This document shows, piece by piece, positions 55,786 to 62,255 of a stretch of 64,000 bases of DNA. A model generated the notes under the pieces. The model saw only the letters and a list, made by a program, of their open reading frames with translations, did not search any database and was not told the DNA's origin. Within the stretch, counting starts at the first letter, position 1. Every line of letters begins with the position of its first letter. This DNA is from Punctularia strigosozonata HHB-11173 SS5. Taxonomy: Eukaryota > Basidiomycota > Agaricomycetes > Corticiales > Punctulariaceae. Where the stretch lies: NCBI RefSeq assembly GCF_000264995.1, contig NW_006767434.1, positions 2,320,004 through 2,384,003 on the forward strand. The letters are read 5' to 3'. The translations under genes were made by a program, and so were the position numbers.

Positions 55786-57732
55786 CTATGCATCTGTACC
55801 ATTGTCAAGGGCCAAAGACGCGGGGGCAACATCCTTCCACCTGTAAATATTATACCGGTGATTCACTCCCTCCAGCCGGGGTATGCATGCGCAACCCCCA
55901 CATCCTGCAAACGGCTGTGAATCCTGGCTGTGCTTCGCAAGTAAGAGATAGCTCACCACCAGTCTTCTGCATTGGTATGACGAAGACTACCTCTTTGACG
56001 CGAGAATGCAATAGGGCCATGCTACACATTATGCATGGTTCGTGCGTGATGAACATGGTCAGACCCGTAAGGAGATAGTTGGTGCCGTTTTTGACCGTGC
56101 TTGTAGATGAGCTGGCATCATCAAGAGCACCTGCCGTATGTTCCATTCGTGACGTGCCAGATCGTGGTACAATGCCAGATGTCGAGGAGGAAGCCCGATA
56201 GTCGGCTATCTTACGAATGCAATTTAGTGCAGCGTGTTTGAGCGGGTGTTTGGTCGATTTGCGTAGGTCGTGCGCCATGAAAGATCGATTGGTTGCAGGG
56301 TGCGCATCTGGTTGCTCAGCCGCCTTTTCTGGTTCCTCGGCGCAAGGAGCGGGTACGTGTGCCACAACAGGTAGCTACCGATCAATCAGAACAGAACGAG
56401 AGTGGAGAATGTTGTTCCATATACATACTTCTCCATTTTCTCGAGCCCGAACAGCTTCGTCGTAGAGTACTTGTACAGCGTCCCATGCCCATTTCACCTG
56501 CAAACGCCGGGCATCAGTTGACAATGCTCGAGAAGCTGCCGAAGATCAACGTGCCTTCCCGCGTGGCCACCTCTCCGCTGCGCCTTTACGACGAGGTGCG
56601 AAGATGGTTGGCCACAAGACATTTTTCAACTTCAGCGAGTTTTGGGTCCGTGCGGGGTATGATGGAACCTTCGTCGTGTACGGGAGGTCTAAACCGAACT
56701 CGTCCGGTAGTCTCGGCGTGCTGTTCTCCAGGTCGCAGTCGGAGAAGCTGGAGGGGGCAGAAGCCTCCGCAGTAAGGGAACCGGACGGAGTCTGGGACGA
56801 CGCGGGATATATCAGGAAAGATGTACGGCCGTCAGACTTGCGGATGCGCTTGAGATGTCCAAGGGTGGAGGTTTCAAGTCCGGATTTGTTGAGCCATTCG
56901 AGAAGCAATGTTATGAGTCGAGGATCGGGGACGTCAACAATCCATGCGTCCACTGAGAACCAACATGTTATTGAATGCTCTTCTCATGGTGTCATGCAAG
57001 CAAAGGGCTTCACGTACTGGTGTGTATGGACGCTTCATCTTCTTCCTCCAGTTCTTCGGGACTGGAACGTATCCTCTCCAAAGGTAATTCTTCATCCGGA
57101 ATCGGATCGCATGGATCGCCGTTGGCCCATGGATTTACTTTCTCCTGGTCATCCTTGAGCACCATGCCAGCCATTGCCTCCCAAATGTTCTCCTCCTGAT
57201 CCTCTTCTAGAGTTGACGAGTCTGAGTCGACTGGCTTGAACCACAGCTTGTGGCCGTAAAATATACAGAGCTCCTCGTCGAGATCGATCTGGCGCGTAGT
57301 TTTATATCGTATAGACTCTGTGGAGTGATCGAGACTGTATGAAATGTTCGGAGTGTCGGAATGATTGAACAACGATCCTGTTTGACTTTGGTCGCGGTAC
57401 GATGATATCCGGCGATCGCAGGGACTAACCGAGACCTAGGGCAAGAGCCATGCGACCATCCTTCCAGTTGAATGTATAGTGATCAAGCACAGTGTGTCTG
57501 CCATGCTCCTCGTACTCCGCTTTGGAAAACAGTAAAACAGGACTGATTTCAACGAGTGATTGAGCAGGTATAGGGCGTGCAGCTACAGCCCATCGTCAAT
57601 GTGGCCCCTGCACAGTGCTGATGAGCGGGCACCTGTGAACCTACCATACACTCCCCTGCCTTTTCCCTCTGTGTACCTGATGCAACACCCGGACGAGTTC
57701 AAGTGATCTGGAGCGGTGGTAAAAGCGGGCAT
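55786..57732 (-). CDS. TAD3: SET-domain / TAD3 tRNA adenosine deaminase subunit, fused gene
   Basis: Seven exons on the minus strand join in phase: 57645-57732, 57430-57582, 57018-57377, 56555-56952, 56429-56497, 55957-56374 and 55786-55904; 534 aa. Residues 1-130 carry a SET domain ([67 protein letters not shown]). From about residue 200 the Tad3 region starts: [53 protein letters not shown], zinc ligands in KHAALN and THEPCIMC, and [20 protein letters not shown]. The usual catalytic Glu is Ala, as expected for the non-catalytic subunit that pairs with Tad2 to make inosine-34. The Tad3 part has no ATG of its own. Intron 56498-56554 is GC-AG (AAG|GCACGT). Confidence 0.85.
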
Positions 57733-60314: not shown

Positions 60315-62255
60315 ATGTCTCAAGAACGGGCAGCATTCCAAGCCGAGGTGCGCCAGGTTGAGGAATGGTGGAAGGTAAGATGGGTCGACCCTATCGTTAC
60401 CAGATAATGTCTCATATATTATGTTACTCCAGAACCCCCGTTTCGCGCGCGTAAAACGACCATATACTGCGGCGCAGGTCGTTGCTAAGCGAGGAACGCT
60501 CCCGATCTCATATCCGTCCGACGTTCAGGGCAAGAAGCTTTGGCGATTACTTGCGGAGCATGCGCAGCGGGGCACGCCGTCGCACACATACGGAGCGTGC
60601 GTACAGTGCTTTGAATGCTGCTATGCGATAGTGCCAACATTATTGTAGTTTGGACCCGGTCCAAGTGACGCAGATGGCAAAATATCTCGAAACCGTGTAC
60701 GTGTCTGGGTGGCAATCCTCTAGCACTGCCTCCAGCACGAATGAACCTGGCCCCGATCTCGCTGGTAAGCTTAATTTGCTGGATGGGGGTAAATGTCCCC
60801 AACTTACCTGTTTGCCCCAGACTACCCATACAACACTGTCCCGCAGAAGGTGGAGCACCTCTTTATGGCCCAATTGTTCCACGACCGGAAGCAACGGGAG
60901 GCACGCTCGAATCTGTCTGAGCAAGAGCTCGCGTCGACGCCATCCATCGACTACCTCCGGCCCATCGTCGCCGACGCAGACACCGGTCACGGCGGTCTGA
61001 CTGCCGTAATGAAGTTGACGAAATTGTTTGTGGAGAAAGGTGCCGCGGGTATTCACATCGGTATGCGAACTTGTTTCATTGCCTTCGCTCATTTGTCCTG
61101 ACCTCCTGCCCAGAGGATCAGGCGCCCGGTACTAAGAAGTGCGGCCACATGGCTGGCAAGGTTTTGGTACCGATCTCTGAGCACATCAACCGACTTGTTG
61201 CTATCCGTCTTCAGTACGATGTGATGGGCGTCGAAAACCTCGTGATTGCACGGACGGACTCCGAGGCGGCCACTCTGATCACCACGAATGTCGACGAGCG
61301 CGACCATCCCTTCATCCTGGGCTCAACGAACCCGACGTTAAGGCCCCTCGTGACGGTGATGAATGAGGCTGAGGCGACAGGCAAGTCCGGTGATGCCTTA
61401 CAGGCGGTCGAGGATGAGTGGACTGCGGCAGCCAACCTCCAACTGCTCTCTACAACGCTCGCCACTGCGCTGCGGGAACAAACTGGAGCATCGCCCTCGA
61501 CCATCGACACCTTCCTGTCCAAGGCAGCGCATGCCTCGCGTCCCCAAGCCGTCGCGATCGCGCAGGAATTTGGCCTGAAGTCGGTGCCGTTCTGGGATTG
61601 GGATGCCCCTCGCACGCGCGAAGGCTTTTACCGTTACCAGGGCGGGACGCAGTGCGCTATCAACCGAGCAACGGCATTCGCTCCCTACGCTGACCTGCTG
61701 TGGATGGAGACGAAGAAGCCTATATTGTCCCAGGCGGTGGAGTTCGCGAAGGGTGTGCACGCGGTACATCCGGGCCACTGGTTGGCGTACAACCTCAGCC
61801 CATCCTTCAATTGGGATGCTGCTGGCCTTGGAACGGACGACATGAAAAACTACGTTTGGGAACTCGGCAAACTGGGCTTCGTCTGGCAGTTCATCACGGT
61901 AAGCCTACAGTTTGGGGTTATGCTGGGTGATTGCTCACAGAAGTATAGCTCGGCGGTCTACATTCAAACGCCTACATCTCCGATCTCTTCGCGCGCGAGT
62001 ACGCTCGTGAAGGTATGAAAGCGTATGTGGAGCTGGTCCAGCGCAAGGAGCGTGAAATTGGCTGTGACGTCCTCACTCATCAGAAATGGTATGTCATCTC
62101 AAGCTCATCAATCTTCCTGTTCTGATGCCACGATGATGCGCAGGAGCGGCGCTGACTACGCCGACAACTTGTTGAAGACGGTGACCGGTGGCGTATCATC
62201 GACCGCGGCAATGGGCAAAGGCGTAACAGAGTCACAGTTCCAGAGCAAGCTTTAG
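60315..62255 (+). CDS. ICL1: Isocitrate lyase, peroxisomal (glyoxylate cycle)
   Basis: Seven exons, 60315-60374, 60433-60596, 60649-60764, 60821-61060, 61114-61898, 61949-62088 and 62144-62255; 538 aa, the usual eukaryotic length. Conserved parts: [57 protein letters not shown] with the catalytic Lys-Lys-Cys-Gly-His-Met loop, IARTDSEAA, and [16 protein letters not shown]. The C-terminus FQSKL ends in SKL, a canonical PTS1, placing the enzyme in peroxisomes or glyoxysomes. It splits isocitrate into succinate and glyoxylate during growth on acetate or fatty acids, and in wood-decay fungi also feeds oxalate. All introns are canonical. Confidence 0.97.

Follow-up and report, generated by a model that had tools for sequence, protein, structure and literature searches.

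A predicted gene of Punctularia strigosozonata that joins a Set7-like SET domain to the deaminase subunit Tad3

Set7 has been described as a histone H3K37 methyltransferase that gametogenesis needs (Shen et al. 2019, by its title as cited in PMC9145779), and the same name has been given to other proteins (PMC2474616; PMC9676040). Tad3, for its part, has been reported to be essential in Fusarium (PMC11156358), where the Tad2-Tad3 heterodimer, together with a cofactor, also edits mRNA. The cofactor of Tad3 in this mRNA editing is Ame1, and the Ame1-Tad3 interaction is said to have originated in Sordariomycetes (PMC11087585). For Basidiomycetes, A-to-I editing was entered as reported, with cautions, in an earlier review (PMC7306014), and the editing reported in several of them has been called erroneous (PMC11156358). 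Matches to DUF726 (Ame1-type) occur at two places in the genome of the basidiomycete Punctularia strigosozonata (C1:3451317-3452403 and C9:836341-837394). At least 38 matches to DUF6533, a basidiomycete family, are present in this genome, and the short introns of the gene described below (52-65 nt) also agree with such an origin.

The locus described here lies in a window of 64,000 nucleotides of P. strigosozonata HHB-11173 SS5 (contig NW_006767434.1, positions 2,320,004 to 2,384,003), that is, the whole stretch of DNA that was analysed. A sequence-only reading of this stretch had proposed seven exons that close in phase to encode a protein of 534 amino acids. When the gene was rebuilt from the sequence, seven minus-strand exons (57732-55786) were again obtained, giving 1605 nt and 534 amino acids in phase with one terminal stop; the earlier model was thus reproduced exactly, with the same outer coordinates. 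Five of the introns are of the GT-AG type and one, intron 4 (56554-56498), is of the GC-AG type, with lengths of 52-65 nt. In the predicted protein, residues 1-127 form the SET half, residues 128-200 an acidic linker and residues 201-534 the Tad3 half. The parts of the locus and its neighbours are as follows.

Exon 1, 57645..57732, minus strand: start of the SET domain (...GRGVY); M1 is the first ATG, with an in-frame stop two codons upstream
Exon 2, 57430..57582, minus strand: central SET domain, spanned by the phmmer alignment to 5h6z
Exon 3, 57018..57377, minus strand: C-terminal SET motifs and the 73-residue acidic linker
Intron 3, 56953..57017, minus strand: 65 nt, GTACGT...TTCTCAG, connecting the SET frame with the Tad3 frame
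Exon 4, 56555..56952, minus strand: putative Tad3 N-terminal domain (...HLKRIRK)
Intron 4, 56498..56554, minus strand: 57 nt, GC-AG type, AAG/GCACGT
Exon 5, 56429..56497, minus strand: stretch between the two Tad3 domains
Exon 6, 55957..56374, minus strand: deaminase domain of Tad3, containing the HAA pseudo-active site (H403) as well as C470 and C473
Exon 7, 55786..55904, minus strand: Tad3 C terminus and stop codon
MRP-L20, downstream neighbour, convergent: PF12824, E 1.6e-27
Glycosyltransferase-4 gene, upstream neighbour, divergent: PF00953, E 4.9e-17

The divergent start codons at 57732 and 57894 are 161 nt apart, and no further gene was seen at the locus between the SET and Tad3 halves. 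Intron 4, of the rarer type, has a length divisible by three and yet holds an in-frame stop. Elsewhere in the window there is a long open frame on the plus strand (60921-62018), which, judged by eye from one motif, looks like isocitrate lyase.

The front half is matched by PF00856 (SET) over residues 25-122 (E 1.2e-13; 51.8 bits, cut-off 22.4), with the profile aligned from position 1 to 105 of 105, and is one of 13 PF00856 matches genome-wide. Among solved structures, SET domain-containing protein 7 (5h6z; E 1.2e-40, residues 17-143) is by a wide margin its closest relative, and the two are 53% identical over the aligned SET domain; both 5h6z and 5ww0 are taken here to be Set7 of Schizosaccharomyces pombe, which for 5h6z is backed by a title cited in PMC9145779. 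The SET motifs GRGV, NHxxxPN and the C-terminal tyrosine motif EELCIFYG are present at residues 25-29, 84-91 and 115-122.

In the rear half, PF00383 (cytidine-deaminase) matches residues 388-488 above the Pfam cut-off (E 1.1e-8). The five best solved relatives are all Tad3/ADAT3 chains, namely 8aw3_3, 7nz7_B, 7bv5_C, 9hmm_B and 7nz9_B, the top three with E values of 8.5e-16, 9.9e-12 and 1e-11, and bacterial TadA chains rank lower. Of the five, 8aw3_3 is deposited only as 'Deaminase, putative' and we take it to be Tad3; 7bv5_C is the yeast chain. The zinc ligands H403, C470 and C473 are kept, and alanine stands in place of the catalytic glutamate (H403-A404-A405, where the ADAT3 chain 9hmm_B has HAV); an HAA motif without the glutamate matches what is expected of a non-catalytic subunit. 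The Tad3 proteins compared in this analysis carry no active enzyme domain. Further forward, HLKRIRK (residues 233-239) aligns with a motif of the solved Tad3 chains, in N-terminal alignments that are non-significant by themselves (i-Evalues of at least 1.5 in one search and at least 1.1 in another) and start near M201, at residue 203 for 7bv5_C, 202 for 8aw3_3 and 190 for 7nz7_B. Among the NCBIfam models nothing specific was found, the TadA model reaching 48.7 bits where its cut-off is 150. The order first read from the DNA, SET in front and Tad3 behind, is borne out by the two Pfam domains above their cut-offs and by the solved Tad3/ADAT3 chains that match the rear.

Each half was also searched against the genome (33.6 Mb in 32 contigs), scores being given for the best candidates only. 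The Tad3 half gave five matches, of which four fall at the SET-Tad3 locus and the fifth on contig C4 (E 3.9e-5); the SET half gave four, three at the locus and one weak (E 0.5). The match on C4 lies in an open frame near 218,475-218,915 with RHAEL and EPCIMCG, which is the genome's best PF00383 match and reads as the frame of a Tad2-like partner. PF00383 itself was found at five places, of which three (on C9, C11 and C1) were missed by the Tad3 query. Since the only match of that query elsewhere is the Tad2-like frame, the sole Tad3 found in the genome sits behind the SET domain.

The junction between the halves was studied closely. The SET frame ends at a TGA (57012-57010) two codons past the donor of intron 3, and from this stop to the Tad3 homology there are about 60 nt. 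The Tad3 frame is preceded by a stop at 56986-56984 and is open from 56983, with no in-frame ATG between that stop and the homology. In the unspliced sequence one of the three frames runs open across the gap, and removal of intron 3 takes away the stops of the other two. The donor reads CCA/GTACGT and the acceptor TTCTCAG/TGG, so that the codon A/TG made at the junction becomes residue 201. Six GT-AG pairs of 45-110 nt are able to join the frames (GC donors left out), and a consensus donor is found only in the pair 57017-56953. When 57030-56951 was dinucleotide-shuffled 5000 times with the flanks kept, some GT-AG join of 45-110 nt arose in 82% of the shuffles, which makes a join of this loose kind easy to obtain by chance; a GTRNGY..YAG join of 45-80 nt arose in 3.9% and a GTANGT..YAG join of 45-80 nt in 0.6%, the two donor criteria having been picked with the real intron 3 already in view. 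GTANGT fits three of the six introns of the gene. The hexamer GTACGT apparently also serves as a donor in a neighbouring gene (58142, by eye). The features that had been noticed at the outset, namely a Tad3 part lacking its own start codon behind a stop, a strong GTACGT donor with a CAG acceptor, and an ATG created across the junction, were all recovered.

Coding signal was scored against the codon usage of 7578 codons, drawn from long open frames in other parts of the window that had been picked mechanically and without curation. On this measure six of the seven exons score highest in the model frame out of six frames, exon 1 doing so with a value below zero; exon 7 scores poorly in the model frame (-0.266). 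Across the 73-codon linker the model frame is again the best of six, with 0.295 bits per codon against at most -0.036 for the others. Opposite exon 4, and reaching into exon 3, lies an antisense open frame of 230 codons (56466-57158, plus strand). As exon 4 read in reverse has one frame that is free of stops with a codon score near zero (0.026), the antisense frame is probably a mirror frame and no gene.

The locus is best read as one fused SET-Tad3 gene, and we consider this likely. The sequence supports it well, because the exons are in phase, one copy of each half was found, there is neither room nor a start for a separate Tad3, and the SET frame carries coding signal up to the junction. 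What had been proposed as a fusion is thus strengthened at the level of the gene by phase, by the single copies found and by the linker, and the joint mRNA is still deduced from the DNA.

The locus might also yield several products, a tentative proposal whose probability overlaps with that of the fused gene because both can hold together. A long mRNA would give the fusion, or a SET-only protein if intron 3 stays in, and Tad3 alone would come from a shorter mRNA starting in exon 3, or from internal initiation, at M149/M152 or M201. The start contexts are in keeping with this. At M1 position -3 is T and position +4 is C, a weak context; at M149 and M152 both positions are G; the splice-made M201 stands in the strong context CACACC/ATGG. 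A protein begun at M149 would have 52 residues ahead of M201, close to what is seen in the yeast chain 7bv5_C, which is aligned from its residue 45. Fusarium TAD2 and TAD3 are described with alternative transcription starts, and TAD2 with alternative start codons as well (PMC11087585). The TGA just past the donor would end the retained form at 202 residues. Simple scanning of the spliced mRNA would, however, be hindered by three out-of-frame ATGs between M1 and M74 (for two of these, -3 is A and +4 is G) and by five more between M149 and M201. In the SET frame, moreover, the linker of exon 3 has no stop and keeps its codon bias as far as the junction. The fusion, a free Tad3 from an internal start and the 202-residue SET-only protein can all be read from the sequence. 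It has also been considered that splicing of intron 3 acts as a switch, retention giving a stand-alone Set7-like methyltransferase of 202 amino acids and splicing giving the fusion together with the strong start CACC/ATGG. The locus would then set the balance between methylation of chromatin, the fused enzyme and Tad3 on its own, and would couple wobble editing capacity to chromatin state; we regard this as improbable.

Two tight tandem genes are an unlikely explanation. Here SET would end at TGA 57012-57010, a 5' exon of Tad3 would overlap SET, and any joint transcript would be of the read-through or polycistronic kind reported from Agaricomycetes. In Plicaturopsis crispa, read-through over at least two genes touches 717 of 9,073 transcribed loci (PMC4503453), and for Ganoderma lingzhi the number of polycistronic genes is given as 1272 (PMC11590231). 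In the solved structures, moreover, Set7 and Tad3 are separate proteins. However, the gap of about 60 nt holds no in-frame ATG, and a start for Tad3 needs either splicing or an exon inside SET. The known polycistrons are described as having stops in all frames between their open reading frames (PMC4503453), whereas one frame stays open across the gap at this locus. An artefact of the gene model, through a sequencing error or a pseudogene, is very improbable: exon 7 has its poor codon score and the model requires one GC-AG intron, but the seven exons close without a frameshift, both domains have kept their motifs, and a second Tad3 was not found in the genome.

If the fused gene is accepted, it would encode a 534-aa protein composed of a SET lysine methyltransferase resembling Set7 of fission yeast, a linker and Tad3. 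The rear half would serve the Tad2-Tad3 adenosine deaminase as its RNA-binding subunit, without catalytic activity itself; it would partner Tad2, contact tRNA via its N-terminal domain and support A34-to-inosine editing, and because of this presumed role in A34 editing the gene is probably essential, the function and essentiality of Tad2-Tad3 being those given in the literature (PMC11087585; PMC11156358). Since its motifs are intact, the SET half is probably active as a lysine methyltransferase, and its target would probably be a lysine, either of histone H3 or of a protein near Tad2-Tad3; the substrate is inferred at best, H3 by analogy with Set7. The fusion most likely secures co-expression and co-localisation of the two activities. 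Direct regulation of editing by methylation is possible but unsupported. The sexual-stage modifications given for Fusarium Tad3 are acetyl-K198, phospho-E8, phospho-E241 and methyl-E17, with lysine methylation not among them (PMC11087585), and they lend no support to a SET enzyme that methylates Tad3. A functional link from methylation to wobble editing is something that we only infer. Editing of mRNA was considered as a possible reason for the fusion and set aside.

A methyltransferase on Tad3, if true, would hint at a substrate of the Set7 family and at a means of regulating Tad2-Tad3, which matters since the heterodimer has an mRNA-editing role with its cofactor in Fusarium (PMC11087585). 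Should transcripts confirm the fusion, two cell functions that are normally separate would be tied together. Should it be conserved across basidiomycetes, it would constitute a natural experiment that makes a link between methylation and editing testable.

Relatives were sought in collections of viral and genome contigs, which are non-fungal and hence carry little weight. No fusion was found in either collection with the SET-half query or with a two-row Set7 alignment, or in the viral contigs with a three-row Tad3 alignment. Two candidates were rejected: a stand-alone bacterial SET protein from a Roizmanbacteria MAG (L018, 4941-5348), 33% identical in its best segment, and, from the viral contigs, an open frame resembling the deaminase TadA (L019). 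As neither is a fusion, they offer no comparative evidence either way on conservation in fungi. The sequence-only reading had the impression that other fungi carry the SET-Tad3 arrangement, and basidiomycetes may do so. Among the open-licence papers listed, judged by title and abstract opening, no description of a SET-Tad3 fusion was found; the one paper in which Tad3 and a SET domain occur together (PMC12884345) uses the name for telomere-associated protein 3. Both domains belong to known families, and their combination is undescribed among the papers listed.

In comparison with the known systems, the front half shares with Set7 (5h6z) the motifs GRGV, FNH..PN and EELCIxYG in addition to its 53% identity, whereas the deposited Set7 chain has 169 residues and the SET half is the front of a predicted protein of 534. 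The rear half has in common with Tad3/ADAT3 (7bv5, 7nz7, 8aw3) the deaminase domain, the zinc ligands, the absence of the catalytic glutamate and, in alignments that are non-significant by themselves, the HLKRIR stretch of the presumed N-terminal domain, but the solved chains, of 317-369 residues, align to the rear half only. Fusarium Tad3, with 428 amino acids, is described without a SET domain in the available account (PMC11087585). The polycistronic read-through transcripts reported from Agaricomycetes resemble the locus in placing close tandem genes on one mRNA (PMC4503453; PMC11590231); there the reading frames are parted by stops, whereas in the SET-Tad3 locus a predicted intron joins them in phase.
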